A stretch of 21,702 nucleotides of DNA, from positions 1-21,702 of IMG/VR virus record IMGVR_UViG_3300006870_000111. One strand, given 5' to 3'. This document shows positions 3,829 to 21,702 of this stretch, in pieces (within the stretch, counting starts at the first letter, position 1; the number at the start of each line of letters is the position of its first letter). This DNA comes from a virus. A program made the position numbers and the translations under genes. The notes under the pieces are model-generated. The model was not told the origin of the DNA, did not search any database, and saw only the letters and a list, made by a program, of their open reading frames with translations.

Positions 3829-3847
3829 TATTATTACAGGATTTGTT

Positions 3848-5089: not shown

Positions 5090-5094
5090 AGCAC

Positions 5095-5116: not shown

Positions 5117-5139
5117 TTTAGAAAACGAAGGATAATAAA

Positions 5140-7122: not shown

Positions 7123-7137
7123 GAAGGAACTTATATT

Positions 7138-8695: not shown

Positions 8696-8698
8696 TAA

Positions 8699-8986
8699 CT
8701 AAGAAAGGATCTGCTGCACTTCGCAGTAGGTCTTTTTTTTGTCCACGATAATAGCGATCATAGATTCTTCGACGATTCGACGACCGTTATTCTTCACCAC
8801 GACCTTTGAGTCGGGGGAAAGTTTTAGATCACAATTGTGAGATAACTTGACAGTCTCGTGATCTTTTGATATAATATGCACACTATCAGACGATATAAGT
8901 AGTTTATCATCTTTACAGATAGTGACTGAGTTTGCAAGTGCCGCTGGTGTTGCTACCAACAGCAATAAAGTTAGTACTAGTTTCAT
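8699..8986 (-). CDS. Secreted hypothetical protein (95 aa), only minus-strand gene
   Basis: Residues 1-18 form a textbook signal peptide (MKLVLTLLLLVATPAALA), and the ribosome site AGGAG is well placed before the ATG, so the gene looks genuine despite its orientation. The mature part is beta-rich and charged with three cysteines (ICKDD, HNCDL, TYCEV) and no recognised domain; a small periplasmic protein is likely. It converges on the peroxiredoxin gene, sharing its terminator region. A 6-bp hairpin (8999-9015) sits directly upstream of the ribosome site. A + strand promoter sequence lies inside the gene. Confidence 0.7.
   Translation of the reverse strand: MKLVLTLLLLVATPAALANSVTICKDDKLLISSDSVHIISKDHETVKLSHNCDLKLSPDSKVVVKNNGRRIVEESMIAIIVDKKKTYCEVQQILS
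8704..8740 (+). terminator. Strong rho-independent terminator after peroxiredoxin
   Basis: A 10-bp stem (8708-8717 with 8723-8732, two G-U pairs) and 5-base loop, followed by eight T. It begins 13 bases after the peroxiredoxin stop and lies inside the 3' end of the converging minus-strand gene. The A-rich run before the stem may also give weak function on the other strand. Confidence 0.9.
8847..8875 (+). promoter_or_regulatory. Sigma70-type promoter, perfect consensus, antisense to the secreted gene
   Basis: TTGACA (8847-8852), 17-base spacer, TATAAT (8870-8875). It points away from the minus-strand gene toward the tRNA-Asn/tRNA-Leu pair about 210 bases downstream, and could also give antisense RNA over the gene's 5' half. 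Confidence 0.65.
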
Positions 8987-8998
8987 TTGCTTTCTCCT

Positions 8999-9019
8999 GT
9001 CGTCATCACGACGACTTTT
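8999..9019. promoter_or_regulatory. Hairpin next to ribosome site of minus-strand gene
   Basis: GTCGTC / GACGAC with a 5-base loop. On the minus strand it abuts the AGGAG site; on the + strand it is followed by TTTT and might be a weak terminator. Confidence 0.4.
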
Positions 9020-9045
9020 GTTGCCTCACGGCATTAATTGTAATG

Positions 9046-9065
9046 TTACAGTTTTGTTACTGTAA
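9046..9065. promoter_or_regulatory. Perfect inverted repeat TTACAGT-N6-ACTGTAA
   Basis: 7-bp arms with a 6-base centre, between the minus-strand gene and tRNA-Asn, next to a TATATATA stretch. The size and symmetry fit a repressor operator; there is no T run to make it a terminator. Confidence 0.45.
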
Positions 9066-9083
9066 TAGTATATATAAGTTTTT

Positions 9084-9159
9084 TGGCGCGTAGCTCAGTT
9101 GGTAGAGCCGATGACTGTTAATCATCTGGTCGCAGGTTCGAGCCCTGCCGCGCCAGCCA
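9084..9159 (+). tRNA. tRNA-Asn (anticodon GTT)
   Basis: Seven-pair acceptor stem TGGCGCG/CGCGCCA, anticodon stem GATGA/TCATC with loop CTGTTAA, T-arm GCAGG-TTCGAGC-CCTGC, discriminator G and encoded CCA. Confidence 0.95.
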
Positions 9160-9163
9160 CATT

Positions 9164-9248
9164 GCGAGAGTGGTGGAATTGGTAGACACGCTGGTTTTAG
9201 GTACCAGTGCCGCAAGGCGTGAGAGTTCGAGTCTCTCCTTTCGCACCA
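9164..9248 (+). tRNA. tRNA-Leu (anticodon TAG)
   Basis: Class II tRNA with long variable arm, acceptor GCGAGAG/CTTTCGC, anticodon stem CTGGT/ACCAG with loop TTTAGGT, and encoded CCA. Four bases after tRNA-Asn, so probably one transcript. Confidence 0.95.
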
Positions 9249-9297
9249 ATATTATGATCCTGTGAAAAATTTACATAAAAAAGTTTCCAAAAAAGTG

Positions 9298-9326
9298 TTG
9301 ACACATGTCTCTAAAACAAGTATAAT
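9298..9326 (+). promoter_or_regulatory. Sigma70-type promoter, perfect consensus, for restriction-modification pair
   Basis: TTGACA (9298-9303), 17-base spacer, TATAAT (9321-9326), 30 bases before the start at 9357. Confidence 0.85.
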
Positions 9327-9356
9327 TACCCTGTAATTTGATGATAGGAAATTGAT

Positions 9357-10163
9357 ATGTCTTATATAAATGATGGATCTATGGATCGTGAGGGTCGAAA
9401 GTTCGAATGTCAAGTGGAAGACCGTTTGAATACGTGTGTTGAAAGTCAAAAACAATGGCTTGGTCGCGAATTGAAAGAAAATGAAATCGCACAACATGTT
9501 GGCGGTTCAAATGGTCATTCTGATGTAAACATCATCAAACAGGATACTAGAGAGGTCGTCTCCCAGATTTCGGTGAAACGTAAAAAGAAAATCGGAAAAG
9601 GTGATGGCGGTATAACATACAAAAATTTTATGTTTGGTAATCACATTACAGATGATAAATCGTTGAAACAGTCTTTTGAGGATTGTGTTACTTGGGCTAA
9701 GTATGCTCGGGATCGATTCGAAAATGGCACACCTAAATCCAAAATCCAAAATGAACAAAAACAATTATCAAATCATATCCTACGTCAAATTTCCAACAAA
9801 ACACTAAAGGAATTGATTCAATCGACAATCGTAGATCGCGATTCTGATACTGATACCTACTTTGTGTTCGGAAATGAAGATTGGTCTGTAGAAGAATCTA
9901 TCGCGTATTCTAATATTCCTATCGTGCGTGATTGGAACAAAGTTCGTAGAGTAGAATTGAAACTCGGCAAATCGAATACTGCGCAATCATGCAAGGTCAA
10001 CTTCATTATGGAAGACGGCCGTGTTGTGGATTACGGTTTGCGTATTCGTGTCCACACTAACAATGGTATCGGTGCATTAGTAGGTATTTCGAAATCTAAT
10101 AAATCATCATATTGGTGTATGAAGTTTCAGCAAGATACTGTTTATTCTATGTTAACTATGTAA
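9357..10163 (+). CDS. Putative type II restriction endonuclease, PD-(D/E)XK-like (268 aa)
   Basis: No family match is certain, but residues 50-76 hold a nuclease-like core: HSDVNI (54-59, Asp56), a turn, then the strand QISVKRKKK (70-78) giving the D-x(n)-SxK pattern of PD-(D/E)XK enzymes; a helix with Glu17 and Glu21 precedes it, as these folds often show. The C-terminal half (VELKLGKSNTA, then a beta-rich region) may recognise DNA. It lies 11 bases before a DNA methyltransferase under one perfect promoter, the usual layout of a restriction-modification pair. Both genes are clearly AT-richer than their neighbours, which suggests acquisition as a unit. It could instead be a non-cleaving DNA-binding partner. 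Confidence 0.55.
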   Translation: MSYINDGSMDREGRKFECQVEDRLNTCVESQKQWLGRELKENEIAQHVGGSNGHSDVNIIKQDTREVVSQISVKRKKKIGKGDGGITYKNFMFGNHITDDKSLKQSFEDCVTWAKYARDRFENGTPKSKIQNEQKQLSNHILRQISNKTLKELIQSTIVDRDSDTDTYFVFGNEDWSVEESIAYSNIPIVRDWNKVRRVELKLGKSNTAQSCKVNFIMEDGRVVDYGLRIRVHTNNGIGALVGISKSNKSSYWCMKFQQDTVYSMLTM

Positions 10164-10174
10164 TAAGGTTTTGA

Positions 10175-11227
10175 ATGTCTAACTACTATTATGTACTGGA
10201 ACGCGATGCGTCCGATATGTGCAACCTTAAAGTTGCACCTAAACTGATTTACATTGACCCGCCTTTTGGGCTGAACAAAAATTTCAAGATGAAAGAAGAC
10301 AATGGTTCAGAAAAAGGGTTTGGTGATAATTGGGACAGTCAAGAAGATTTTTTGAATTGGTATTCTGACATCATTGAAAAATGTTACATGGTGTTGGACA
10401 AAAATGGGTTTCTGTACTGCCATAACAACTTCATTATGAATGCTTTGGTATTGTCCAAACTGTCTATCAGTTCAAAATTAGATACTAACATATCATGGAG
10501 ACGTTCACATCCTCACAATAATATTAAGAATGGGTGGGGCAACATTGTAGATAGTATTCTAGTTTTTAAAAAGGGATCTCCTAGATTCAATGTACAATAT
10601 TCAGAATTAGATGAGACGTACAAGAACAATAGTTTTGGTAATATTGACGAACGAGGGAATTATTCTCTTGCACCAATTACGGGAGAGAAAAGTAGACCCG
10701 GCCATATGTTTGAATTCGGCGGCTTCAATCCAAAGTTTGGTTGGAGGAAACCGATGAAAGAGATTCAAAAACTAGATGAACAAAATCTTATACACTATGG
10801 TAAAAATAAACCATACAAAAAGATGTATCTCGAAGACTCGAAAGGACCACCGATTCAAAATTTCTGGGACGACATACACTCAGTCACTAGGACCGAAAAA
10901 CAAAAAAGGGAGTACCCAACACAAAAACCGATTGGATTGCTAGAGAGGATTATAGAATCTAGTTCTCAAGTAGGCGATTTGGTATTCGATCCATTTTGTG
11001 GTTCGGGTACTACATTATTAGCAAGCAATAATCTAAGAAGGTCTTGTATTACTTCAGACTTAAACTTAGATGCTCTCGACATTGCTGTAGGGCGTCTTAA
11101 TGCTCAAGGCGCGGCCGTAAATACGGATGTTAAAAACATCTGGGAAGACGATAACAGATCATTTGTAGACAACAAGATTTTGTCCAAACCAAAATCTAAT
11201 CTTGAGGAGTTTATGTATGTCTCCTAA
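10175..11227 (+). CDS. DNA methyltransferase, N4-cytosine/N6-adenine beta class (350 aa)
   Basis: Catalytic motif IV DPPFG (28-32) comes first and the AdoMet-binding motif DPFCGSGTT (272-280) comes last, preceded by YPTQKP (247-252). This is the order of the beta class, which methylates adenine N6 or cytosine N4 in duplex DNA. The middle (about 110-245) is the target-recognition part, so specificity cannot be read from sequence. Close spacing after the putative nuclease and shared AT-rich composition suggest a restriction-modification pair; alternatively it protects phage DNA from host restriction. The final codons contain the ribosome site for the next gene, which overlaps by 11 bases. Confidence 0.93.
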   Translation: MSNYYYVLERDASDMCNLKVAPKLIYIDPPFGLNKNFKMKEDNGSEKGFGDNWDSQEDFLNWYSDIIEKCYMVLDKNGFLYCHNNFIMNALVLSKLSISSKLDTNISWRRSHPHNNIKNGWGNIVDSILVFKKGSPRFNVQYSELDETYKNNSFGNIDERGNYSLAPITGEKSRPGHMFEFGGFNPKFGWRKPMKEIQKLDEQNLIHYGKNKPYKKMYLEDSKGPPIQNFWDDIHSVTRTEKQKREYPTQKPIGLLERIIESSSQVGDLVFDPFCGSGTTLLASNNLRRSCITSDLNLDALDIAVGRLNAQGAAVNTDVKNIWEDDNRSFVDNKILSKPKSNLEEFMYVS

Positions 11228-11519
11228 GACAGGACGTGGCGATCCGATGGTAAGAGCAGACGGTCGCACTAAACCAGATCGCAACTGGTATCCCGAAGAC
11301 TTTGATTGGTACCTGAAGTGGGCTGCATCAATTCTTATTCTTGCTTCTTTGGCAATGCGTTCCGCAGGCCCAGAGTTTCGCATGTATGACTTGACAATCG
11401 GGTTCGCGGGTATTATACTATGGACTTGGGTATCTGTTATCTGGAAAGACCGCGCACTCATCATGTTGAATGCGGTTTCTGGGTTTATGATTGCAACAAC
11501 TATTTTGAGGGAGTGGTAA
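11217..11519 (+). CDS. Multi-pass membrane protein (100 aa)
   Basis: The start at 11217 is chosen because GAGGAG (11204-11209) is correctly spaced. A polar N terminus (MSPKTGRGDPMVRADGRTKPDRNW) is followed by WYLKWAASILILASLAM, then two more hydrophobic stretches (about 58-75 and 80-97): probably three membrane spans. Proteins with this layout recur in marine T4-like phages; function is unknown. An internal sigma70-type promoter lies in its second half. Confidence 0.7.
   Translation: MSPKTGRGDPMVRADGRTKPDRNWYPEDFDWYLKWAASILILASLAMRSAGPEFRMYDLTIGFAGIILWTWVSVIWKDRALIMLNAVSGFMIATTILREW
11391..11419 (+). promoter_or_regulatory. Sigma70-type promoter inside membrane protein gene
   Basis: TTGACA (11391-11396), 17-base spacer, TATACT (11414-11419), 100 bases before the DUF3310-like gene. 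Confidence 0.6.
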
Positions 11520-11863
11520 TGGAAAACGTAAAAGATCTGAGAGCCGAAGGTTATGTTACTGAGGAAGAGATTCCTAAGTTCACACTAGACCTTCCGCCCA
11601 ACTACAAGTTCAACGAAGATAAGTTGATCGCAGAATTTTCGAGTTATATTGACTCTACATATAATCAACACTACGCCAAAGAGAAGTTTCAGGCGACCGA
11701 ATTTATTATTGATGGGGGGCACGGTACAGGATTCTGTATCGGTAATGTTTTAAAATACGCACAGCGTTACGGGAAAAAGGGAACCCGCGACGATGCGCGA
11801 AAAGACTTACTAAAGGTACTTCATTATGCGCTTATTCAATTACACGTTCACGATAGCGATTAG
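11519..11863 (+). CDS. DUF3310-like protein (114 aa)
   Basis: The ATG overlaps the previous stop by one base (TAATG). The second half matches the DUF3310 (SaV-like) pattern: a QHY near the start, then FIIDGGHGTGFCIGNVLKY (residues 61-79), the AQRYGKKGT turn, and a final DLLKVLHYALIQL helix. This small helical family is widespread in phages, often near nucleotide metabolism genes, but its activity is not established. Its end overlaps the lipoprotein gene by 38 bases. Confidence 0.7.
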   Translation: MENVKDLRAEGYVTEEEIPKFTLDLPPNYKFNEDKLIAEFSSYIDSTYNQHYAKEKFQATEFIIDGGHGTGFCIGNVLKYAQRYGKKGTRDDARKDLLKVLHYALIQLHVHDSD

Positions 11864-12206
11864 TCTATTCATCACCGGATGCGCATCGTCCGGTATCACC
11901 AATGCGTACCGTTACGGTGCGGATGATTATAAGTTCCTAGAAAAGGAATACGAGAACCTACATCCAAAGGTTCATTTTGTTTTACTCAAAAACGAAGCCG
12001 AGTATAATTCAGCCAGACGACAGAATCTAGGCGTACAATGGGACACAGTGAGTGCATTCACTCTCTGGATTCCGGAAACCGGCGAGTGCACCGTGTACAT
12101 AAAGGACCCACAGTGGCAGTGGGAACCTGAGTTGATTGGACACGAAGTGGCACACTGTATATGGGGGAGATACCATAGAGGCAAAGAAGGCCTCAGACCA
12201 TATTAG
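11826..12206 (+). CDS. Lipoprotein with HExxH motif (126 aa)
   Basis: Type II signal peptide: basic start MRLFNY, hydrophobic core, and lipobox ITGC at residues 16-19 followed by ASS, so a lipid-anchored periplasmic protein. Near the C terminus IGHEVAHCIWGRYHRG has an HEVAH zinc motif. The middle region (FTLWIPETGECTVYIKDPQWQWEPE) fits the strand preceding such motifs in small metallopeptidases. Likely a membrane-bound zinc protein acting in the periplasm, substrate unknown. The last base of its TAG stop is the first base of the tRNA-Asp gene. Confidence 0.7.
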   Translation: MRLFNYTFTIAISLFITGCASSGITNAYRYGADDYKFLEKEYENLHPKVHFVLLKNEAEYNSARRQNLGVQWDTVSAFTLWIPETGECTVYIKDPQWQWEPELIGHEVAHCIWGRYHRGKEGLRPY

Positions 12207-12282
12207 GAGCGGTAGTTCAGTTGGTTAGAATATCGGCCTGTCACGCCGAGGGTCGCGGGTTCGAGTCCCGTCCGCTCCGCCA
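12206..12282 (+). tRNA. tRNA-Asp (anticodon GTC)
   Basis: Acceptor GGAGCGG/CCGCTCC, anticodon stem TCGGC/GCCGA with loop CTGTCAC, standard T-arm, encoded CCA. The first base overlaps the upstream stop codon. Confidence 0.95.
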
Positions 12283-12298
12283 ACTTTGAGGAAAACTT

Positions 12299-12541
12299 AT
12301 GAGGTTTTTATTAGTTGCACTGTTGACAACAGTGACCAGTTGTAGTACAATGAGTGAACAAATTGATAAAGGACTTTGTCTCAAGTGGGCAACCTTTATT
12401 CAAGAGGAACAAGAATGTGTTGGTGGTCGCGGTGTTGCGCAACAAATTTGCGTCGTGCGATATGTACCAAAAGCAAAGTGTTTAGTCTGGGAATGGCCAG
12501 AAGGAAGACCCGAAAATGGATCCGATACAAGTTTGGAATGA
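12299..12541 (+). CDS. Small lipoprotein (80 aa)
   Basis: MRFLLVALLTTVTSCS is a lipoprotein signal with TVTSC as lipobox (Cys15), following TTGAGGAAA as ribosome site. The mature part has four further cysteines (GLCLKW, QECVGG, QICVVRY, AKCLVW), enough for two disulfides in the periplasm. Not recognised beyond that; a spanin-type lysis role is conceivable but it lacks the Pro-rich or coiled-coil look of Rz1/Rz. Overlaps the next small gene by 26 bases. Confidence 0.65.
   Translation: MRFLLVALLTTVTSCSTMSEQIDKGLCLKWATFIQEEQECVGGRGVAQQICVVRYVPKAKCLVWEWPEGRPENGSDTSLE
12323..12351 (+). promoter_or_regulatory. Possible internal sigma70-type promoter
   Basis: TTGACA (12323-12328), 17-base spacer, TACAAT (12346-12351), inside the lipoprotein signal-peptide codons; it may be fortuitous, or drive the small genes from 12516 and tRNA-Pro. 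Confidence 0.4.
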
Positions 12542-12632
12542 GCTGGGATATATCGATGGTATTATGTTTACCATCTGGTTAGGTATCCTGTACTATGGGA
12601 AATGCTGGATTGACAGCAGATTTAAGGATTGA
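12516..12632 (+). CDS. Tiny membrane protein (38 aa)
   Basis: Frame beginning MDPIQVWNELGYIDG with ribosome site AAGGAAG about 10 bases upstream; residues 15-29 are hydrophobic (GIMFTIWLGILYYG) and the end is basic (SRFKD). It overlaps the lipoprotein gene by 26 bases and ends one base before the next start. Small single-pass protein of unknown role. Confidence 0.55.
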   Translation: MDPIQVWNELGYIDGIMFTIWLGILYYGKCWIDSRFKD

Positions 12633-12633
12633 T

Positions 12634-12831
12634 ATGCGAGGAAAGCATGTAGTCAAGCGCCGACGCGAAGGCGCACTCGATCGTCTTCAGGCGTCAACGT
12701 TCTTTGAGAAGAACGGACGCACTGAACAACAGTGGCAGAAGCGTAAGGACAAGGAGATCGAGAGACTTGAGATCGCACTTGGTCTGAAGCAACCTGCCAA
12801 GAAGAAGCGAGAAGAAATCACTCTCGACTAA
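12634..12831 (+). CDS. Basic helical hypothetical protein (65 aa)
   Basis: The ATG at 12634 is preferred to an upstream in-frame ATG at 12595 because AAGGA (12624-12628) is well spaced and the longer form would read through the 38-aa gene. The protein is dense in Arg/Lys (KHVVKRRREGALDRLQ; KRKDKEIERLEIALGLKQ), with a heptad-like C-terminal helix. It probably binds nucleic acid or a partner protein. No family recognised. Confidence 0.6.
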   Translation: MRGKHVVKRRREGALDRLQASTFFEKNGRTEQQWQKRKDKEIERLEIALGLKQPAKKKREEITLD

Positions 12832-12938
12832 TGAATAGTCCTGAGATGACTCTAAACTCACTCTGGTCGTTACGCCCGTCACCTGAGTATGTGGAAAACT
12901 GCTCTTTTATTATTGCGGAGATTAGCTCAGCTTGGTAG
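12831..12938 (+). CDS. Possible tiny gene running into tRNA-Pro (35 aa)
   Basis: TAATG overlap with the preceding gene opens a 35-codon frame (MNSPEMTLNSLWSLRPSPEY...) whose stop lies in the D-arm of tRNA-Pro. The N-terminal part resembles short phage proteins with an LWSLRP stretch, so this may be a remnant cut off by tRNA insertion, or chance. Low confidence. Confidence 0.25.
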   Translation: MNSPEMTLNSLWSLRPSPEYVENCSFIIAEISSAW

Positions 12939-12992
12939 AGCACTGCATTTGGGATGCAGGGGCCGTTGGTTCGAATCCAGCATCTCCGACCA
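12916..12992 (+). tRNA. tRNA-Pro (anticodon TGG)
   Basis: Acceptor CGGAGAT/ATCTCCG, anticodon stem CTGCA/TGCAG with loop TTTGGGA, standard D- and T-arms and encoded CCA. Confidence 0.95.
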
Positions 12993-13006
12993 GTTGAGGA
13001 AATGTT

Positions 13007-13168
13007 ATGATACATGAGTGGAAGATTTTTTATAAAGGTATGCAAGTAGGTCTAACCTACTCAATGACAGAGTACGGCGCACGAGAACGGTGGTACAATA
13101 ACCAGAGTTCGAGTGCATCTAAATATTCCGGTCTGAACTTCTCAGACATCTTTGCAAAAAGGGTCTGA
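13007..13168 (+). CDS. Small hypothetical protein (53 aa)
   Basis: GAGGAAA precedes the ATG by a good distance, 14 bases after tRNA-Pro. The sequence MIHEWKIFYKGMQVGLTYSM followed by TEYGARERWYNNQSSSAS looks like a compact beta-hairpin plus charged turn, and similar short proteins occur in marine phages. It is followed by a strong terminator at 13212. Function unknown. Confidence 0.65.
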   Translation: MIHEWKIFYKGMQVGLTYSMTEYGARERWYNNQSSSASKYSGLNFSDIFAKRV

Positions 13169-13211
13169 TTCCCCTTTACAAATAACTGAATCAGTGGTGC
13201 CCAGTTGAGGC

Positions 13212-13239
13212 GGGGGAGGAAACTCCCCCTTTTTATTTT
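13212..13239 (+). terminator. Strong rho-independent terminator
   Basis: Perfect 7-bp GC stem GGGGGAG/CTCCCCC with GAAA tetraloop, followed by TTTTTATTTT. It ends transcription of the 11-13 kb cluster, just before tRNA-Ser. Confidence 0.93.
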
Positions 13240-13246
13240 AAAAATA

Positions 13247-13334
13247 GGTGGGCTGGCTGAGTGGTCGAAAGCGGCGGTCTTGAAAACCGTTGAACCGAGA
13301 GGTTCCGTAGGTTCGAATCCTACGCCCACCGCCA
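13247..13334 (+). tRNA. tRNA-Ser (anticodon TGA)
   Basis: Class II tRNA: acceptor GGTGGGC/GCCCACC, anticodon loop CTTGAAA, long variable arm, encoded CCA. It follows a terminator, so it needs read-through or its own promoter. Confidence 0.95.
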
Positions 13335-13341
13335 CAATTTG

Positions 13342-13349
13342 TATAAATA
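13342..13349 (+). promoter_or_regulatory. T4-late-type promoter (TATAAATA)
   Basis: Exact match to the T4 late -10 element read by the gp55 sigma factor, 31 bases before the start at 13381, and with no sigma70 -35 element. Best-placed late element in the window. Confidence 0.75.
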
Positions 13350-13380
13350 AATACATCTATCACCAACAGACTGTATTACA

Positions 13381-14067
13381 ATGAAATCTTTTAAAACATT
13401 CTTAGACGAAGGTGTCAACGATCCAGCAATCTTCAAGGCGATCTTTCTTGCGGGTGGGCCAGGCTCTGGTAAGTCATTCATCGTCGGCAAAACTGGTTTG
13501 ACTTCTATGGGTTACAAGGTCGTTAACTCTGACGACGCATTTGAAGCTGCTATGAAGAAAGTTGATATGGATATGACTCCGGACAATATCTTCTCACCGA
13601 AGGGTCAAGAACTTCGTGGCAAGGCAAAGAAACTAACCGGCAAGAAAGAAGAACGATATCTGAAAGGCCGTCTTGGTCTTGTCGTAGACGGTACTGGTAA
13701 AGATCCAGACAAAATCGCAGCGCAGGCACAAAAGGTTAAAGATCTAGGTTACGATGTTGCAATGATATTCGTCAATACAGATCTTGACACTGCAATTAAC
13801 CGTGATGCAAAACGAGCTCGTACACTAGGTGCGAAGGGTGTTACTGAATACTGGAAAGCGGTTCAACGCAATGTTGGTAAGTTCCAGCGTATGTTCGGTA
13901 AAGAGAACTTCTTGGTAGTTGATAACTCAGAAGGCAAGAACTACGAAAAAGAAACACTGACTGCATATCGTGATGCAAAGAAGTTTACGGATAAACCTGT
14001 TGGTGCGAAGGCGAAACGTTGGATTGAAGTAGAGAAGCAAGCAATCAAGCGCGTCAAAAAAAGATAA
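13381..14067 (+). CDS. P-loop kinase (zeta-toxin/PNK-like) with capsid-targeting-like N terminus (228 aa)
   Basis: The first ten residues MKSFKTFLDE match the T4 internal-protein targeting pattern (family recall: MKTYQEFIAE in T4), with a predicted prohead-protease cut after L-D-E. Then IFLAGGPGSGKS (21-32) is a Walker A loop; VNSDDAFE (48-55) and LVVDGTGKDPDK (100-111) match the substrate and second-strand elements of zeta-toxin/polynucleotide-kinase-like enzymes; a lid with Arg residues (DAKRARTLGAKG, 142-153) follows. It probably phosphorylates a small molecule or nucleic-acid end; substrate unknown. It lies behind a TATAAATA late promoter and has no clear ribosome site, consistent with late expression as a virion component (inference). 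Confidence 0.8.
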   Translation: MKSFKTFLDEGVNDPAIFKAIFLAGGPGSGKSFIVGKTGLTSMGYKVVNSDDAFEAAMKKVDMDMTPDNIFSPKGQELRGKAKKLTGKKEERYLKGRLGLVVDGTGKDPDKIAAQAQKVKDLGYDVAMIFVNTDLDTAINRDAKRARTLGAKGVTEYWKAVQRNVGKFQRMFGKENFLVVDNSEGKNYEKETLTAYRDAKKFTDKPVGAKAKRWIEVEKQAIKRVKKR

Positions 14068-14077
14068 CTATTCACAC

Positions 14078-14107
14078 TTGACACCTGTCTATAAACTGTA
14101 GTATACT
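14078..14107 (+). promoter_or_regulatory. Sigma70-type promoter for cytochrome c peroxidase
   Basis: TTGACA (14078-14083), 18-base spacer, TATACT (14102-14107). The leader then contains a hairpin carrying the ribosome site. Confidence 0.75.
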
Positions 14108-14126
14108 TACTCTCGTAACTTGAAAT

Positions 14127-14145
14127 AGAGTATTGAGAGGACTCT
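14127..14145 (+). promoter_or_regulatory. Hairpin exposing the ribosome site of the peroxidase gene
   Basis: AGAGT/ACTCT pair around a 9-base loop that contains GAGAGG, the ribosome site for the ATG at 14152. A possible site of translational control. Confidence 0.35.
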
Positions 14146-14151
14146 TATATT

Positions 14152-15564
14152 ATGAAGAAACTACTAACTGTAGCTGTGTCTACGGCACTCCTGAGTGCAT
14201 GTTCTGGCGGAGCAGATAACGCATCCGCCCCCGACCCTGTGGTCGTAACTCCCCCAACCGTAACCCCTGTTGATCCTGCAGTCGAGGCACGTGACAATCT
14301 ACTCACGTTACTTGACTCAACATCAACGACAGGTTCATACGAAGAATACATCCTGCCCGACAGCGATGACTTCGACAACATTCCGCAAGATCCAAGCAAC
14401 CCTATTACTGCAGAGAAAGTTGCGCTCGGTCAGTTAGTCTATCATGAGACTGGCATCACCGATGGCAATATCTCTGGCATGGACGGGACATTCTCGTGCG
14501 CATCATGTCACAACGCACAGAACGGATTCAAGTCTGGTATTCGTCAGGGTATTGGTGAAGGTGGTATCGGTTTTGATCATCGTATGATTGCTGAGGGTGT
14601 CAATCCCGAAGACATCGATGTGCAACCCGTCACATCACCCACTGTACTCAACACGGCATTCCAAGAAGTAATGTTGTGGAATGGTCAGTTCGGTAATGTC
14701 ATAGGTGGTGTTGTCAATGTCGGCATTGACGAAGATCGTCACTTCACAGAAGGCACTCCCAAAGAAGCAAATCTGCGTAACTTCGCTGGTCTAGAGACAC
14801 AAGCAGTTGCGGGTCTAGGTGTGCATCGTATGGGCGACACCGATAATTCTATTCTGCGCACCAACGAAACTTATCGTGAGATGTATGAAGCTGCGTACGG
14901 TGTTGCAGAACCCGACGATATGTTAGAGGCAACTGCACTTGCGATTGCCGCATACGAACGAACCATTCTTGCGAACCAAGCACCCTTCCAAGCATACTTG
15001 AAAGGCGACGAAACTGCGATGACTGAATCTGAAGTCGCTGGTGCAGAAGTGTTCTTCGGTAAGGGTAACTGTTATGCTTGTCATAACGGACCTGCGTTGT
15101 CGTCTCCGGTTGGTGCCATGGCAGACGAAGTGTTCATGACTGTCGGTTTCCACGATCTAGACATCTGGGAAGACACGGTCGGTGAAGTCAACGATGCGAC
15201 TAGAGAGGGTCGCGGCGGATTCACTGGCGACGAACTTGACCGATTCAAGTTCAAAGTTCCACCTCTTTACAACCTTATAGATACTACTGTATTCGGTCAC
15301 GGTGCGTCATTCTCTAGTGTAGAAGATGTCGTGCGATACAAGGTGGCTGCGGTTCCACAACACCCACAAGTGGAAACGTATGACCTTGACTATCGGTTCA
15401 CTCCGTTAGACTTGACCGAAGACGAGATCACAAACCTTGTTGCTTTTCTTGAGAACAGTTTGTATGATCCAGAGTTGATGCGATATGTGCCAGAGTCGTT
15501 ACCAAGCGGCAACTGTCCTGTCAACAATGATGAGGTGTCACGCCAAGAACTTGGGTGTGACTGA
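14152..15564 (+). CDS. Di-heme cytochrome c peroxidase (CcpA/MauG family) lipoprotein (470 aa)
   Basis: Lipoprotein signal with lipobox LSAC (Cys17), then a Pro/Val-rich linker to about residue 45. Two heme c sites: CASCH (116-120) and CYACH (307-311). Between them TALAIAAYERTILANQAPFQ (261-280) and after them KVPPLYNL plus FGHGASFSS (368-389) and LTEDEITNLVAFL (421-433) are the usual CCP_MauG landmarks. The family reduces hydrogen peroxide in the periplasm with electrons from host cytochrome c or cupredoxin; some members oxidise other targets. Both hemes need the host Ccm system. At 470 residues it is longer than classical enzymes (about 320-350), mainly from the linker and loops. It has its own strong promoter. 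Highly unexpected cargo for a phage; the family is certain, the substrate is not. Confidence 0.93.
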   Translation: MKKLLTVAVSTALLSACSGGADNASAPDPVVVTPPTVTPVDPAVEARDNLLTLLDSTSTTGSYEEYILPDSDDFDNIPQDPSNPITAEKVALGQLVYHETGITDGNISGMDGTFSCASCHNAQNGFKSGIRQGIGEGGIGFDHRMIAEGVNPEDIDVQPVTSPTVLNTAFQEVMLWNGQFGNVIGGVVNVGIDEDRHFTEGTPKEANLRNFAGLETQAVAGLGVHRMGDTDNSILRTNETYREMYEAAYGVAEPDDMLEATALAIAAYERTILANQAPFQAYLKGDETAMTESEVAGAEVFFGKGNCYACHNGPALSSPVGAMADEVFMTVGFHDLDIWEDTVGEVNDATREGRGGFTGDELDRFKFKVPPLYNLIDTTVFGHGASFSSVEDVVRYKVAAVPQHPQVETYDLDYRFTPLDLTEDEITNLVAFLENSLYDPELMRYVPESLPSGNCPVNNDEVSRQELGCD

Positions 15565-15566
15565 AG

Positions 15567-15574
15567 TATAAATA
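15567..15574 (+). promoter_or_regulatory. T4-late-type element (TATAAATA) before tRNA-Ala
   Basis: Exact TATAAATA 10 bases upstream of tRNA-Ala. A start about 12 bases further on would fall just inside the tRNA, so it may instead serve the genes after it. Confidence 0.5.
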
Positions 15575-15583
15575 GGAACTATA

Positions 15584-15659
15584 GGGGCTATAGCTCAGTT
15601 GGGAGAGCGCTTGATTTGCATTCAAGAGGTCGTGGGTTCGACTCCCTCTAGCTCCACCA
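15584..15659 (+). tRNA. tRNA-Ala (anticodon TGC)
   Basis: Acceptor GGGGCTA/TAGCTCC, anticodon stem CTTGA/TCAAG with loop TTTGCAT, encoded CCA. Confidence 0.95.
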
Positions 15660-15663
15660 GTTC

Positions 15664-15823
15664 CCCCACACAGTACGGTAGTTTGACATAAGAGTGAATT
15701 TTGCGCACGGGCGCACTGATAAGATCTGCAGATCTCTCAATACGTGCATGTAAAAATGCCAAGCAGAGTTATATCAAGTTTCACCTATACCAAATATGTC
15801 TTTAGAACGCCGTACTTGTGGGG
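15664..15823 (+). ncRNA. Candidate structured RNA in a 190-base gene-free stretch
   Basis: No reading frame is convincing between tRNA-Ala and 15854. Instead the ends pair: bases 15664-15678 with 15810-15823 form 14 pairs interrupted by one bulged C (CCCCACA, C, AGTACGG). Inside are a TGCGC-ACGG-GCGCA hairpin (15702-15715), the 14-base palindrome AGATCTGCAGATCT (15722-15735) and GCAT-N6-ATGC (15746-15759). It may be processed from the tRNA-Ala transcript. Structure is seen by eye only. Confidence 0.35.
15722..15735. repeat. 14-bp perfect palindrome
   Basis: AGATCTGCAGATCT, within the candidate structured stretch. It can act as a hairpin in RNA only with a strained loop, so a DNA-binding site or dimerisation site is also possible. 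Confidence 0.6.
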
Positions 15824-15834
15824 ATCTTTTGCTA

Positions 15835-15863
15835 TTGACAAGTGATCTTTTTTATGTTAGAAT
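15835..15863 (+). promoter_or_regulatory. Sigma70-type promoter overlapping a small gene start
   Basis: TTGACA (15835-15840), 17-base spacer, TAGAAT (15858-15863). Transcription from it would start inside the 43-residue frame at 15854, so it serves mainly the exonuclease gene at 15985. Confidence 0.6.
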
Positions 15864-15985
15864 TCTTATTATATTTCTTCGCAACGATTGGCGTTATCAC
15901 ATTCGCTAGTCTAGTCTTTTTTTCATATCTTGTGAAAAGAGAACGAAGATCCATTGATGAAAGTGACTTGGACAACTATAGATAA
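15854..15985 (+). CDS. Small single-pass membrane protein (43 aa)
   Basis: MLEFLLYFFATIGVITFASL and following residues form one long membrane segment (about 3-26), then a charged tail (KRERRSIDESDLDNY). No ribosome site is visible, and the promoter -10 element overlaps codons 2-4, so translation would depend on an upstream transcript. The stop overlaps the next ATG (TAATG), which supports it as a real gene. Confidence 0.5.
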   Translation: MLEFLLYFFATIGVITFASLVFFSYLVKRERRSIDESDLDNYR

Positions 15986-16662
15986 TGTTTGAACATGTGC
16001 CTGTCGAGTTGACAGAAATGAAAACGGAGAACCGCAATGGTCGCCGTGAGTATAAAACGCCCGAAGGAATTAATCTTCCTTCTATAACCACCGTACTCTC
16101 TATCCTATCACGCGAGTCTATCGCAAAGTGGCGTAAAAAGGTCGGTAACGAAGAAGCAAACCGTATCTCTCACCGTGCATCTACACGCGGTACTGCAGTT
16201 CACGCGATCATTGAGAAATACATCAACAATGAAGAGAATTTTAAAGATGGATACACTCCAGATATTATTGGCAGTTTTCTTGATCTCAAACCCATTCTTG
16301 ATGGCCGCATTGGCAGAGTATATGCACAGGAAGCACCACTCTACTCAAACCATCTGGGTGTCGCTGGTCGTGTGGACTGTGTCGCTGATTTTGATGGTAA
16401 ATTGTCTATCATTGATTTTAAGACCTCAATGAAACCCAAGCGGAAGGATTGGATCACCAATTACTTCATGCAAGAATCCGCCTACGCAATCATGTGGGAA
16501 GAACGCACAGGTCGTCCCATTACTCAGCTCGTCACCATTATCTCTGTAGATAACCACGATCCGCAGATTTTTGTCGAACACAGAGATACATGGGTAAGAC
16601 CTCTTCGCGAAACTATCGCAAAATATAACGCAGAAAACGCCGAAAATCCCCTTGACATATAA
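15985..16662 (+). CDS. PD-(D/E)XK exonuclease, RecB/Cas4-like (225 aa)
   Basis: Motifs of the RecB-nuclease class in order: GTAVH (69-73) helix histidine, GRVD (128-131) with metal Asp131, IIDFKT (142-147) with Asp144 and Lys146, and QESAYA (163-168). These are the residues expected for a metal-dependent single-strand exonuclease of the type found in many marine T4-like phages, where it is thought to act in recombination or host-DNA degradation. An N-terminal wHTH-like piece (LPSITTVLSILS) leads in. Coupled to the 43-residue gene by TAATG. The enzyme family is secure, the pathway is inferred. Confidence 0.85.
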   Translation: MFEHVPVELTEMKTENRNGRREYKTPEGINLPSITTVLSILSRESIAKWRKKVGNEEANRISHRASTRGTAVHAIIEKYINNEENFKDGYTPDIIGSFLDLKPILDGRIGRVYAQEAPLYSNHLGVAGRVDCVADFDGKLSIIDFKTSMKPKRKDWITNYFMQESAYAIMWEERTGRPITQLVTIISVDNHDPQIFVEHRDTWVRPLRETIAKYNAENAENPLDI

Positions 16663-16679
16663 ATAGTGTCTGTTATACT
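16652..16679 (+). promoter_or_regulatory. Composite promoter: sigma70-type plus T4-late-type
   Basis: TTGACA (16652-16657), 16-base spacer, TATACT (16674-16679); the late element TATAAATA (16658-16665) begins directly after TTGACA. It precedes the GTG start at 16705 and could be used by both early and late polymerase forms. Confidence 0.7.
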
Positions 16680-16704
16680 CAATAAAGAGTAAGAGGATCA
16701 CTAA

Positions 16705-18084
16705 GTGGCAAATTTTAACGGAGACGACGGTAAGTTCGATAAAGGATACCTTGACATGATTGTCAGGGACATTGAAGCGGGCAAGAAAATAAAATTTGGT
16801 GATGGTGAGTCTCAGAAAATAAATGTTACTGACGACATAAAGGCATTTATAAAAGCGGTAAAAGAAAGGAACGAGAGAAATTTAAATAAGGCGATGCGTG
16901 TAGGCACCACTGTCAAATTCTCTCCTATTTTCAACGGATACCCTTGGACAAAAATTGATAAATCACCATACAGTGGTCAAGGTGGTTCTGGGGCCGGTGC
17001 TAAGATCACTGCATTGGGTGAATGTTTTCAGGCATATATGTGCGCTGCAAGACAGAAGAAGGGCAGTGACTTAAACAGTTGGTTAGAAGGGTTGGATCTG
17101 CTGGACAGCACTACCATATCAACTTATACTGATTGTGATAGAACTTTAAAACAATGTCTTGCCGATCTAGATGAGGATTGGAAAAATTCTGGATGCGTCG
17201 TAGCTAATAAGATTTTTAAAAGATTGGATGCTGTTAAGTATGTGTTTCATCGGGGCGGTCGTACTGTCGGCAAGATAGAAGACACTTATAAAAAACTGAA
17301 GAAAACTGCGGGCATCACATTCGACGTGAACAAATGGAACCCTGCTGATATATGGGTAATGAAAAAATCTTTCACTCTTGACACTAACCATGATACTCTA
17401 GATGAGTTCAACGAATATATTCTAAAGGAACATAGAAGCAATAACTTGTTAGGAATCTCTCTCAAGAAACTTGATTCTGGTGCAACCTCATGTACCGAAG
17501 AAGTATTCAACGATGGAACGCCCAGACCAAAGGCGACATTTCTCAGGCACGCTGTTTCTGGTATCGGTAAGAACTCTGATTGGTTAACTTCGTATCGAAA
17601 GGCAGGTGATGCAAGTAAAGACGTATACTTCACCTACAGAGTCGGTAGAAAAGAAGTCAATATGCAGATCCGAACATTCGATAGTGGAATGACAGGATGG
17701 CAGGGAGAGATTAAAGGAAAATCTGCCGCTGGGGGAAAAATCGGTGGCGGCAATCTTCAATCAGCCATGGTTCTCGCCGGAATACCAGAGAGAAAATTTA
17801 AAAATCAAAGTGAGTTTAAAAGATTATCTAAGATAGACAATAAGTCTACGATTGCAGAATTCACTAAGATGTACAATGAACTCTCTGACTCTACTATGAC
17901 AGAAGACGAAATGTCTTTGTTCTTACAAGACTACACGAATAACTGGTTGTACAGTAAATACTTATCGATGCAATTCATATACTTACTAGTGACGGAAAGA
18001 AAGGCTGACGAAGTCGTCTCTATGGTTGTTAGTATTGCCGAGTCTGCAACACCTAAATCATCCATCTTTATAAAGTATAGTTAA
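16705..18084 (+). CDS. Unassigned protein, possibly PD-(D/E)XK nuclease-like (459 aa)
   Basis: GTG start behind AAGAGGA. The N-terminal 60 residues are charged; at 102-112 TALGECFQAYM is a helix with Glu106; at 208-219 VNKWNPADIWVM places Asp215 in a strand, followed at 249-255 by LGISLKK. The order E - D - SxK resembles a restriction-type nuclease core, and the NPADIW plus ISLKK pair recurs in phage proteins I cannot name. C-terminal part (about 395-459) is helical. No targeting decapeptide at the N terminus, unlike the genes after it. It is AT-rich (about 35% G+C by hand counts in 16801-16860), well below its downstream neighbour. Nuclease activity is a guess; existence of the gene is secure. 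Confidence 0.75.
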   Translation: MANFNGDDGKFDKGYLDMIVRDIEAGKKIKFGDGESQKINVTDDIKAFIKAVKERNERNLNKAMRVGTTVKFSPIFNGYPWTKIDKSPYSGQGGSGAGAKITALGECFQAYMCAARQKKGSDLNSWLEGLDLLDSTTISTYTDCDRTLKQCLADLDEDWKNSGCVVANKIFKRLDAVKYVFHRGGRTVGKIEDTYKKLKKTAGITFDVNKWNPADIWVMKKSFTLDTNHDTLDEFNEYILKEHRSNNLLGISLKKLDSGATSCTEEVFNDGTPRPKATFLRHAVSGIGKNSDWLTSYRKAGDASKDVYFTYRVGRKEVNMQIRTFDSGMTGWQGEIKGKSAAGGKIGGGNLQSAMVLAGIPERKFKNQSEFKRLSKIDNKSTIAEFTKMYNELSDSTMTEDEMSLFLQDYTNNWLYSKYLSMQFIYLLVTERKADEVVSMVVSIAESATPKSSIFIKYS

Positions 18085-18085
18085 C

Positions 18086-19306
18086 ATGGAAAATTTCAGT
18101 AACTTCATCACAGAACAGAAGAACACTCACATGACTCACATCGAGGACAAGGTCCTGTATGGTGGAGTTGACGGTACACGTCAGGCGATCAATGCACTGC
18201 GTGGTCTACGGGACATGTTGGCGGGATCTGGTGGTGGTCGCGTATCGGTCAAGTGGGACGGTGCGCCTGCTATCTTCGCTGGACAAGATCCACGTGACGG
18301 TCAGTTCTTTGTCGCGAAGAAAGGCATCTTCAATAAGAACCCAAAGGTCTACAAGACCGACGCGGATATCGATGCAGACACCAAGGGTGATCTTAACACT
18401 AAACTCAAGGCTGCACTCAAGTATCTCCCCGACCTAAACATCAAGGGTGTCGTTCAGGGAGACTTCCTATTCAGTCGCGCAGATCTACAAGGTAAAAAGA
18501 TCGGTGGTCAGAAGTATGTCGTCTTTCACCCGAACACAATCGCGTATGCAGTGCCGTGGGATCAGGCGGCAGACATTCGTGCAGCGAAAATCGGAATCGT
18601 CTGGCACACAACCTACACGGGCGATTCTTTTGAAAACATGACTGCATCTTACGGTGTGGATGTCTCCAAGTTTCGCAAGTCTCGCAATGTATGGTCACAG
18701 GACGCGATGCTTCGCGACGTGACTAACGCAACGATGAGTGAAAGTGAGACAACCGAAGTAAATGGTTTGTTGACGCAGATCGGTCGTTTGTTCCGACAAA
18801 CCTCTTCGTCTACACTAAAATCTGTTGGTGATAATCCTAAGTTTGCACAGGCGATCGAAACATACAACAACACATTCGTTCGTGCGGGTACGCTGATACC
18901 AGACTCTAAAAAACATGTTGAAGGCCTCATTAAACATCGTCAAGCATACTATAAGAAAGAGATAGATAGTAAGAAGTCTCAACGTGGTAAGGACGCTTGG
19001 GTCGCTAAGATGAAGGACGAAATGGACTTTTTCTCTGCAACTAACAGGGCAAACCTCATAAAAATGTTTGAGTTACAACGATTAATTGTATTAGTGAAAT
19101 TAAAACTTATAAATAGTTTGGACAAATTAAAATCAATTGATACTTTCGTAAAAACTTCGAATGGTTACAAAGTGACTGGCGAAGAAGGATATGTTGCAAT
19201 TGATACACTTGGTGGTGACGCGGTGAAATTGGTTGATCGTATGGAGTTCTCCTACAACAACTTTTCATCTGATATATTAAAGGGTTGGGATTCGGCCCGT
19301 AGATAA
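18086..19306 (+). CDS. DUF6267-like protein with ligase-type KxDG motif and capsid-targeting-like N terminus (406 aa)
   Basis: The start MENFSNFITE fits the targeting decapeptide, with a possible cut after I-T-E. Then VKWDGAPAIF (55-64) matches motif I (KxDG, Lys56 as nucleotidyl-accepting lysine) of ATP-dependent ligases; FVAKKG (75-80) and GVVQGDFLFS (121-130) resemble later nucleotidyltransferase motifs, and VVFHPNTIAY follows. I recall this as DUF6267, found next to head genes in marine T4-like phages. It may be a ligase or a nucleotidyltransferase relative; activity unproven. The end (about 19040-19306) is far more AT-rich than the first 900 bases, hinting at a mosaic C terminus. It starts two bases after the previous stop. 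Confidence 0.75.
   Translation: MENFSNFITEQKNTHMTHIEDKVLYGGVDGTRQAINALRGLRDMLAGSGGGRVSVKWDGAPAIFAGQDPRDGQFFVAKKGIFNKNPKVYKTDADIDADTKGDLNTKLKAALKYLPDLNIKGVVQGDFLFSRADLQGKKIGGQKYVVFHPNTIAYAVPWDQAADIRAAKIGIVWHTTYTGDSFENMTASYGVDVSKFRKSRNVWSQDAMLRDVTNATMSESETTEVNGLLTQIGRLFRQTSSSTLKSVGDNPKFAQAIETYNNTFVRAGTLIPDSKKHVEGLIKHRQAYYKKEIDSKKSQRGKDAWVAKMKDEMDFFSATNRANLIKMFELQRLIVLVKLKLINSLDKLKSIDTFVKTSNGYKVTGEEGYVAIDTLGGDAVKLVDRMEFSYNNFSSDILKGWDSARR
19108..19115 (+). promoter_or_regulatory. T4-late-type element (TATAAATA) inside the KxDG gene
   Basis: Exact match, in the AT-rich end of the gene, about 220 bases before the start at 19339. It could supply late transcription of the basic-protein gene, or be chance within AT-rich sequence. 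Confidence 0.4.
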
Positions 19307-19338
19307 TATGGAATAAACCAATAAAGGATTAGGTAGTT

Positions 19339-19710
19339 ATGCTATCATTTAAGCAGTTCGTGAGTGAAGTGTTAGACGCAACTCAGCGCCGTAAACTCGC
19401 GATGAAAATGAAGAAGAATAAAACTCGCATTGCAATGGGTCGCAAACGCGCAGAACGTAAGATGGCCTCAAAAGAGGTTCTTCAGAAACGTGCACGTCGT
19501 CAAGCAAGAAAGGCGATGATTTCGAAGATCACCAAAGGTCAAGACAAAGGTGATATGTCGATTGCACGTAAGAAGGAGATCGAGAAGCGTTTAGAGAGAC
19601 CAGCAGTGCAAGCAAGAATAGACCGTCAGTCACGCAAGTTGATGAAAACGGTTCGTCGCCAAGAGATAGATAGAAAGAGAGCTAGACGACAAGGCGGCGC
19701 AGAGAAGTGA
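19339..19710 (+). CDS. Very basic protein with capsid-targeting-like N terminus (123 aa)
   Basis: Starts MLSFKQFVSE, the targeting pattern, with a possible cut after V-S-E. The remaining body is extremely basic: 43 of 123 residues are Lys or Arg by hand count, in helical arrays (RKRAERKM, RARRQARKAM, RKKEIEKRLERP). That composition fits a DNA-condensing or DNA-coating protein, comparable in idea to T4 internal proteins or histone-like proteins. It follows AAAGGATTAGG as ribosome site and overlaps the next gene by four bases (GTGA). Function is inferred from composition and N terminus only. Confidence 0.7.
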   Translation: MLSFKQFVSEVLDATQRRKLAMKMKKNKTRIAMGRKRAERKMASKEVLQKRARRQARKAMISKITKGQDKGDMSIARKKEIEKRLERPAVQARIDRQSRKLMKTVRRQEIDRKRARRQGGAEK

Positions 19711-21467
19711 TTAAGAATTTTAGTCAGTACCTCGTGGAGGAAGAACGCGAGGTCTACTTTACATTCGGACGTATGAATCCACCTACCATCGGACATGGTA
19801 AGGTGATGGATACGTTAGCTCAAAAGTCAGGCAAAGCCGACTATAAAGTCTTCGTGTCACAATCTCAAGACGCGAAAAAGAATCCCCTGTCGTATACCGA
19901 CAAAATCAAACACACACGTAAGATGTTTCCAAAACATGCACGGAACGTCATGGTTGATAAGACTGTGAAAACAGCGATCAACGCAATGGTCACATTGTAC
20001 AATCAAGGTTACAAGTCAGTTACTATGGTTGTCGGTGCAGACCGTATTACAGAATTCGAAGTCCTGTTGAACAAGTACAACGGACAAAAAGCAAGACATG
20101 GTTTTTACAATTTTAAGAGTATTAAAGTAGTATCTGCAGGTGAGAGAGATCCAGACGCTAGCGGCGTAGAGGGTATGTCTGCCTCCAAACAACGAGAGAA
20201 CGCACAGAAAAATGATTTTGTTTCATTCTCTCAAGGTGTTCCTAAGTCCATGTCAAATCCCGACACACGCAAATTGTTTAATGATGTGCGTAAGGGTATG
20301 GGACTCAAGGAAGCCAACGAATTCCGTAATCATCTAGAACTAGAAACAGTATCAGAAACTCGTGAACAGTATGTTTCGGGTGAACTGTTTGAAGTTGGTG
20401 ATACGGTAGTTATTAAAGAATCTGAAGAGATCGCTACCGTATCCGTTCTAGGTGCGAACTATGTTATCGTAGAAACATCTGACGGTAAGAAAATGCGCAA
20501 GTGGTTGGATGCAGTTGAGCCAATCGTAGAAGACGTATCGCAACGTCAAATTGATGACCTAGAGAAGTTCGGTGATCGTTTGTTGAAGAAGTTCGACATC
20601 GACATCGAGTTCACCCGTCATTTTGCAGATCGCATGAACGACAAGCGTAATGACCCAGAGATCAAGGTCGCAGAGATTCAGCGCTTGTTCAAGAAGATTG
20701 CAAAGAACAAGGGCAAAGACATTAAGAAACACGGAGATGCGGAGGCGGTCCTCAAGGACATGCAGTCAGATCTGAATCTTCCGATTGTCGTGAACTACAA
20801 GAACGGTGAGTTCGAAGTAGTCAACAAGACCATCATGCGCAAGAAAGGGTTCAAGACAACGAGTCCAGAGATCAAGTACGAGAGTGTACAAGATCCAGAC
20901 ATCAAAGATCGTGAGGGTACACAACCAGCACGATACCACAAAGGTCTTGCGAAGTCAACCAAGGCAAAACGTGACGCCCACTTCAAGAAGCATGGCAAGA
21001 AGGCAGACGACGATTCATCTGCATACAAACCAGCGCCAGGCGACAAAGACGCCAAGACTAAACCATCCAAGTACACCAAGTCGTTCAAAGATATGTATGA
21101 CGAAGATTGTTGGGATGGTTACAAGCAAGTCGGTATGAAAAAGAAGGGTGGTAAGATGGTCCCTAACTGTGTCGCAGAAGACGGCGGTGCAGGTGAAGAG
21201 GGCACCGACAAGTTACGCAAAAAGTATTTTAAGGACACACCAGGCCAAGATGATATCTTAGAGAACTGGGTGACTGATTTGATGCATCGTGTCGGATCAA
21301 AAACTATAAATAAAGACAAATATCGTAAAGTGGCGCAACACATCAAACGTGAGATGGGTAAAGGTAAATACACTTCTCCAGAGTTTGCCGCTGCTGATAC
21401 TATTCGCAGGTTTAACCTAGATGTAGATGCTAAGGTACTTGCAGGAATGATTAGGAAACTGGCATGA
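19707..21467 (+). CDS. Multidomain cytidylyltransferase-like protein with capsid-targeting-like N terminus (586 aa)
   Basis: GTG start in a GTGA overlap. N terminus MIKNFSQYLVEEE fits the targeting pattern shifted by one residue. Residues 17-165 are a nucleotidyltransferase fold: FGRMNPPTIGHGKV (20-33) holds the TIGH form of the HxGH motif, VVGADR (108-113) the second loop, and SASKQREN (158-165) a form of the ISSTxxR motif. Such enzymes transfer AMP or CMP (NMN adenylyl-, glycerol-phosphate cytidylyl-transferases). Residues 225-275 are an SH3/KOW-like barrel. Residues 280-390 (FTRHFADRMNDKRN ... KTIMRKKGF) form a module I know only as recurrent in marine phages. Residues 400-490 contain a Lys-rich linker and CWDGYKQVGMKKKGG, another recurrent phage motif. 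The final 75 residues are helical. Overlaps the next gene by ATGA. Confidence 0.75.
   Translation: MIKNFSQYLVEEEREVYFTFGRMNPPTIGHGKVMDTLAQKSGKADYKVFVSQSQDAKKNPLSYTDKIKHTRKMFPKHARNVMVDKTVKTAINAMVTLYNQGYKSVTMVVGADRITEFEVLLNKYNGQKARHGFYNFKSIKVVSAGERDPDASGVEGMSASKQRENAQKNDFVSFSQGVPKSMSNPDTRKLFNDVRKGMGLKEANEFRNHLELETVSETREQYVSGELFEVGDTVVIKESEEIATVSVLGANYVIVETSDGKKMRKWLDAVEPIVEDVSQRQIDDLEKFGDRLLKKFDIDIEFTRHFADRMNDKRNDPEIKVAEIQRLFKKIAKNKGKDIKKHGDAEAVLKDMQSDLNLPIVVNYKNGEFEVVNKTIMRKKGFKTTSPEIKYESVQDPDIKDREGTQPARYHKGLAKSTKAKRDAHFKKHGKKADDDSSAYKPAPGDKDAKTKPSKYTKSFKDMYDEDCWDGYKQVGMKKKGGKMVPNCVAEDGGAGEEGTDKLRKKYFKDTPGQDDILENWVTDLMHRVGSKTINKDKYRKVAQHIKREMGKGKYTSPEFAAADTIRRFNLDVDAKVLAGMIRKLA
21305..21312 (+). 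promoter_or_regulatory. T4-late-type element (TATAAATA)
   Basis: Exact match inside the multidomain gene, about 150 bases before the start at 21464. Lower confidence because it is within coding sequence. Confidence 0.4.
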
Positions 21468-21702
21468 TTTCTTTTAAGAACTATCTTGAAGAAAAACGAT
21501 ACTCGATGTATGATAGTATCGACCTAGAAGAAGGACCGGACGGTATCGCTGCGAAGGCGAAGAAGTCTGGTATTTCACCAGAGACCTTAAAGAAAGTTTA
21601 TAATCGTGGAGTTGCCGCGTGGAAGACAGGTCATCGGCCGGGAACTACACCGCAACAATGGGGAATGGCGCGAGTTAACGCGTTCATTGTTAAAAAGAAA
21701 AA
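21464..21702 (+). CDS. DUF5824-like phage protein, cut by window end
   Basis: Starts in an ATGA overlap with the multidomain gene, and the window ends before its stop (79 codons seen). MISFKNYLEE fits the targeting pattern with a cut site after L-E-E. Residues about 29-75 match the DUF5824 signature of T4-like phages: KAKKSGISPETLKKVYNRG, then AAWKTGHRPGTTPQQWGMAR. This family is common near head genes of marine T4-like phages; its activity is unknown. Confidence 0.7.
   Translation, partial: MISFKNYLEEKRYSMYDSIDLEEGPDGIAAKAKKSGISPETLKKVYNRGVAAWKTGHRPGTTPQQWGMARVNAFIVKKK

Follow-up and report, generated by a model that had tools for sequence, protein, structure and literature searches.

In T-even phages, it has already been stated that a single targeting sequence stands on diverse internal proteins (PMC3012670). 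In T4 IPI, IPII and IPIII, this signal comprises ten residues with critical positions 4, 7, 8 and 10 and an (L/I)-x-E end (PMC9026906, PMC3012670), and experiments on IPIII have linked residues 4 and 7 to targeting and residues 8 and 10 to processing (PMC9026906). Here, we analyzed a 21.7-kb virus fragment of a T4-superfamily phage (IMG/VR record IMGVR_UViG_3300006870_000111, positions 1 to 21,702; this whole stretch is referred to as the window), in which five genes start with a decapeptide of the same build, hereafter called the tag. With a probability of about 80%, marine T4-superfamily phages use this decapeptide as a modular capsid-targeting propeptide of the T4 type, the bodies behind it being docked, cut free and ejected.

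The likeness to the T4 internal proteins further includes an S77 prohead protease in the genome (here in relatives), late expression (here predicted from promoters) and diverse bodies. Unlike them, the tagged set belongs to another phage branch, and enzymes can be recognised among its cargo, which also extends to at least 26 more clusters of bodies; no coliphage IP body was among the tagged bodies seen, and the set is known from genes and the proteomics of one family. T4 Alt is likewise a head-packaged enzyme (an ADP-ribosyltransferase), which gp21 processes and which is delivered into the host; however, the window holds no Alt homologue, and only one tagged body of a relative (locus L130, 3111-4022) is ADP-ribosyltransferase-like, by eye only and with no Pfam match. 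In the giant phages phiKZ and SPN3US, an S77-related protease cleaves propeptides behind Glu and many proteins are ejected, but their motif is a different and less specific one, and phiKZ showed neither an S77 Pfam match nor a match to the tag pattern. Polyvalent proteins are multi-enzyme cargo moving with DNA and have zeta-like kinases among their domains (PMC5512222), whereas most of the window cargo comes as individual proteins that each bear a tag of their own. Finally, the cytidylyltransferase/NMNAT repeatedly found in purified cyanophage virions is an orthologue of one window protein (19707); the parts of the cyanophage proteome papers available to us propose no packaging signal, and the tag supplies one.

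Results

The tag occurs far more often than expected by chance

The shared decapeptide start of five genes, first noted in the preliminary description, was confirmed: four of them fit the pattern M..[FY]..[FY][LIV].E at the protein start exactly, and the fifth (19707) reads M-IKNFSQYLVE from its GTG start, that is, the same core shifted by one residue. Allowing for this offset, the window tags carry the aromatics at positions 4 and 7, and all five show the processing motif formed by the aliphatic residue at 8 and Glu at 10. The chance expectation of the exact pattern is 1.14e-4 per start, and the probability of at least four exact matches among 30-60 genes amounts to 6e-12 to 9e-11.

In 304 related viral loci, the exact spacing gave 220 matches (174 distinct tags), more than any other of the 1,512 permutations of its residue classes, which had a mean of 1.1. 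Because these loci had been fetched with tagged proteins, the count was repeated outside the five families. There, the exact spacing still ranked first (84 matches; mean, 0.77). In 71 genes the core had an offset of 3 relative to the start, compared to 0.24 per other offset. A marine podovirus control yielded one match in 1,478 starts. At BLAST level, the tagged bodies of the 304 loci form 30 clusters, some of which may be distant relatives of one another; 26 lie beyond the set of the preliminary description.

Conservation follows the positions known from T4. Among 44 DUF6267 homologues, conservation is strong at positions 4, 8 and 10 and moderate at position 7, while positions 2, 3, 5 and 6 drift; in 80 cyanophage cytidylyltransferases, positions 4, 7, 8 and 10 are invariant and position 9 is the most variable. 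L8 and E10 of the tag are also invariant in the kinase alignment. Third-codon-position changes occur at conserved tag residues.

Tags, prohead protease and late promoters in relatives and T4

The nearest annotated relative of the window, Phage C48C1 (Kyanoviridae, 156 kb), has kept four of the five tags, each on the same body, with VIKNFSQYLLE as the counterpart of the 19707 tag. It also contains a tagged gene of no assigned family at 57302, roughly at the position of the window kinase, and one more downstream (68091). Its UvsW fits a looser pattern only, and this match is probably due to chance. In G004, a near-complete 160-kb metagenomic genome whose kinase is 98% identical to that of the window, the same kind of tagged genes was found, with five exact tags inside one 12-kb stretch.

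A gp21-type prohead protease, for which the preliminary description had proposed a search, is encoded by both relatives as an S77 protease, and S77 was present in every tag-bearing genome tested; the window fragment itself contains neither an S77 prohead protease nor a T4-type core. C48C1 additionally encodes a T4-type scaffold and gp23. The N-terminal region of this gp23 contains FLTE, which would fit the same cut motif as the tags. The genomes of T7, phiKZ, SPO1 and HTVC010P gave no match to the pattern and likewise none to S77.

In T4, the whole-genome pattern scan returned three genes, namely ipII, ipIII and gp61.1. The last of these (54 amino acids; NC_000866 18966-19130, locus L330) starts with MKTFKEFIKE and is, judged by this start, a candidate for a further head-targeted T4 protein. 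To our knowledge, gp61.1 is not known as an internal protein.

The T4-type late promoter core TATAAATA occurs at five sites in the window, compared to 0.8 expected, and none of 100 shuffles reached five. In the relatives, it was found within 100 nucleotides (nt) upstream of 69/218 tagged genes vs. 235/2990 untagged genes (p = 7e-22), in nearly all cases at a distance of 29-61 nt from the start; the site in front of the window kinase lies at this typical distance. The cyanophage-type late promoter CTAAATA showed no enrichment in the window (3 found vs. 3.1 expected). The enrichment of the T4-type core suggests that tagged genes may be expressed late.

One tagged family is found in purified virions

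According to published proteomes, proteins of the cytidylyltransferase family are contained in purified virions of S-SM1 (PMC3037559), S-SCSM1 (where it is named NMNAT; PMC9602691), S-CREM2 (PMC10665884) and S-SZBM1 (PMC9146016). These proteins start with MKKFSAFLNE in S-SM1, MKSFLQFLKE in S-SCSM1 and MKNFSSFLTE in S-CREM2; in S-SZBM1, the start is MRFRQFIIE, a tag one residue shorter. In S-SM1 and syn9, the cytidylyltransferase gene is the sole exact pattern match genome-wide.

Bodies behind the tags

Table 1. Coordinates of tags, bodies and late promoter cores in the window.
Feature	Position	Strand	Evidence or remark
TATAAATA, T4-type late promoter core	13342..13349	+	31 nt upstream of kinase start
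MKSFKTFLDE tag on kinase	13381..13410	+	ATG start, exact pattern fit
P-loop kinase body (AAA_33 / zeta-toxin / polynucleotide-kinase type)	13411..14067	+	Pfam, Foldseek
TATAAATA, late promoter core	16658..16665	+	39 nt upstream of 16705 open reading frame (ORF)
Untagged neighbour gene (phrog_1462)	16705..18084	+	some relatives' homologues tagged
MENFSNFITE tag on DUF6267	18086..18115	+	ATG start, exact pattern fit
DUF6267 body, KxDG ligase-like	18116..19306	+	DUF6267 344.7 bits
MLSFKQFVSE tag on Arg/Lys-rich protein	19339..19368	+	ATG start, exact pattern fit
Arg/Lys-rich body	19369..19710	+	sits inside cytidylyltransferase protein in phage DLP_6
IKNFSQYLVE tag on cytidylyltransferase/NMNAT-like protein	19707..19739	+	GTG start, one extra residue
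Cytidylyltransferase/NMNAT-like body and C-terminal regions	19740..21467	+	CTP_transf_like above cut-off, phrog_3041, phrog_395
MISFKNYLEE tag on DUF5824 protein	21464..21493	+	ATG start, exact pattern fit
DUF5824 body, cut by window end	21494..21702	+	DUF5824 67.7 bits

The kinase body matched AAA_33 (43.3 bits) and Zeta_toxin (40.5 bits), both above the Pfam cut-off. In the Foldseek search, polynucleotide, adenylate and zeta kinases were alike by E-value, with the highest target-normalised template modelling (TM) score (0.69) for polynucleotide kinases; residues 4-11 of the model form a helix at moderate confidence. In DUF6267, the residues K56, D58 and G59 (KxDG), QGD 124-126, E367, G368 and K381 are invariant, and we assign QGD 124-126, EG 367-368 and K381 as putative ligase motifs. 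Its best match in the fold search against the Protein Data Bank (PDB) was a DNA ligase at a weak E-value of 0.4, and comparison with a viral RNA ligase gave E = 2.6e-3 but a TM-score of 0.25-0.30. In the AlphaFold2 model of this protein, residues 1-11, which make up the tag region, are the only segment with a predicted local distance difference test (pLDDT) score < 50, and the folded part starts after the Glu. The alignments for the kinase and DUF6267 models were built from window and viral-contig rows only. Of the "at least three enzyme folds" proposed earlier, the P-loop kinase and the nucleotidylyltransferase are secure, whereas the ligase-like one is tentative. The ORF at 21464 runs past the window end (79 amino acids here, 90 in C48C1). 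NCBIfam offered no name for any of the five bodies, PADLOC found no defence match that merited retention, and a PDB sequence search returned nothing for the kinase or DUF6267.

The statement that the five bodies are unrelated holds by sequence, though other phages encode several of them as a single fused protein (PHROG 455, 3041, 23027). Where DUF5824 or basic-protein bodies are fused inside a larger ORF, the internal junctions carry no tag (0/28 DUF5824 and 0/34 basic-protein cases), as would be expected if one tag served one chain. A kinase-DUF6267 fusion (L314) keeps the tag at its junction, and an internal tag in L114 may be a start-call artefact; as most junctions lose the tag, we rejected the retention of internal tags as a rule.

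Among further tagged bodies in relatives are a HAD-type phosphatase and an AAA ATPase, and several others, judged by eye, are possible nucleases. One tagged body (L124, 16824-17540) has a weak Tpt1/KptA match.

Other genes in the window

The window also encodes an isocitrate lyase (3848-5089; Pfam ICL, 309 bits), which has an ORF of the same length, annotated as hypothetical, in C48C1 (44175-45416). A di-haem cytochrome c peroxidase/MauG-like lipoprotein (14152-15564) represents unusual phage cargo, and a similar protein is found in C48C1 (57990-59411). Between 9357 and 11227, an N6/N4 DNA methylase gene (10175) lies directly behind a gene for 268 amino acids (9357); the two possibly constitute a restriction-modification pair. 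Seven tRNA genes (Glu, Asn, Leu, Asp, Pro, Ser, Ala) are located between coding genes from 3753 to 15659. A NifU-like iron-sulfur scaffold (1161-1535) and a peroxiredoxin-type redoxin (8102-8695) have C48C1 genes annotated alike.

Discussion

The proposal of T4-type capsid targeting made in the preliminary description is strongly supported by the same critical residues, S77 in relatives, late promoters and the presence of one family in virions. In the mechanism considered here, the tag would be a brief N-terminal stretch defined by aromatic residues at 4 and 7, an aliphatic residue at 8 and Glu at 10. Like a transferable address label, it would stand on bodies that are unrelated to one another (the kinase, DUF6267, the basic protein, the cytidylyltransferase/NMNAT-like protein and DUF5824), usually with one label per polypeptide even where several domains are fused. 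Late in infection, it would dock each protein in the core of the prohead, cleavage after the Glu by the S77 prohead protease would then free the body within the maturing head, and the bodies would exit together with the DNA. Packaging of the cytidylyltransferase/NMNAT-like family is well supported by published proteomics, and the other four bodies are likely packaged as well. Cleavage of the tag after the Glu appears probable, and ejection of the bodies into the host is somewhat favoured; the effector role also put forward in the preliminary description is conjectural.

Several observations weigh against this mechanism. Virion detection covers one of the five window families, through orthologues, and none of the other four bodies, and the authors of two proteomes allow for carry-over of abundant proteins (PMC10665884, PMC9602691). 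In S-SCSM1, untagged neighbours, including gp282, a homologue of window gene 16705, are annotated as virion proteins; therefore, the tag is not the sole route into the virion. The genomes G011 and phiM12 contain S77 and no exact pattern match, HTVC008M homologues carry degenerate tags, gp61.1 of T4 also fits the pattern, and some fused ORFs as called have no recognisable front tag. A conserved body that lacks the decapeptide, which the preliminary description had named as evidence against packaging, does occur in DUF6267 of cyanophages. In S-SZBM1, this untagged gene adjoins the tagged cytidylyltransferase gene and by length and order corresponds to ORF 141, a numbering that we inferred; the text of the virion proteome paper never mentions ORF 141, and the protein seems to be absent from the reported virion proteins. 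Since this copy is apparently unreported in the virion and its tagged neighbour is reported, the untagged DUF6267 is consistent with the tag being a predictor of packaging.

Alternatively, the tag could bring proteins into the prohead core where they act, in core assembly, DNA packaging or end processing, with ejection being incidental or absent. T4 IPIII affects head assembly (PMC9026906), and the bodies resemble nucleic-acid enzymes, one being a basic protein; however, tagged T4 proteins enter the host (PMC9026906) and, unlike conserved assembly parts, the cargo is swapped between close relatives (the window kinase vs. another tagged body in C48C1), and we regard such a function as unlikely. 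The critical residues shared with the T4 signal, the match of the pattern to T4 ipII and ipIII, and the tagged family in virions of four phages make it highly improbable that the peptide docks proteins to another phage or host machine with no capsid role, even though peptide docking motifs are common and four bodies were not detected in virions. Chance similarity or a functionless 5' gene segment spread by recombination might be considered, given how short the motif is and how commonly genes are shuffled in these phages. Chance origin was rejected based on the motif counts (220 matches vs. about one expected), the podovirus control and the repeat outside the five families. The 174 distinct tags and the third-codon-position changes at conserved residues also speak against this explanation, and it is contradicted by the drift of positions 2, 3, 5 and 6 while 4, 8 and 10 hold; its probability is close to negligible.

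Assuming capsid targeting, it is a speculative and rather doubtful further idea that the tagged set represents a packaged repair and counter-defence kit for the first minute of infection, comprising polynucleotide-kinase-like, ligase-like and NMNAT-like enzymes, to which relatives would add the HAD-type phosphatase, the weak Tpt1/KptA match, the possible ADP-ribosyltransferase and nuclease-like bodies. If true, the kit would mend nucleic acid or nicotinamide adenine dinucleotide (NAD) damage from host defences before phage gene expression, and phages would trade cargo by transferring bodies under a common address tag.

A full-text literature search combining the name of the targeting signal with "cyanophage" returned a T4 review only. 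What appears to be new, within the literature searched, is that the signal extends to marine T4-superfamily phages, that its cargo includes enzymes and that it connects to virion enzymes so far unexplained. For enzymes repeatedly seen in cyanophage virions, where carry-over is not excluded, the tag offers a mechanism, and it provides a simple testable rule by which the first ten residues would predict head cargo that is probably injected. About 26 further candidate cargo clusters, mostly without assigned function, are thereby listed as potential injected proteins, and the T4 targeting principle would be extended to abundant marine phages.

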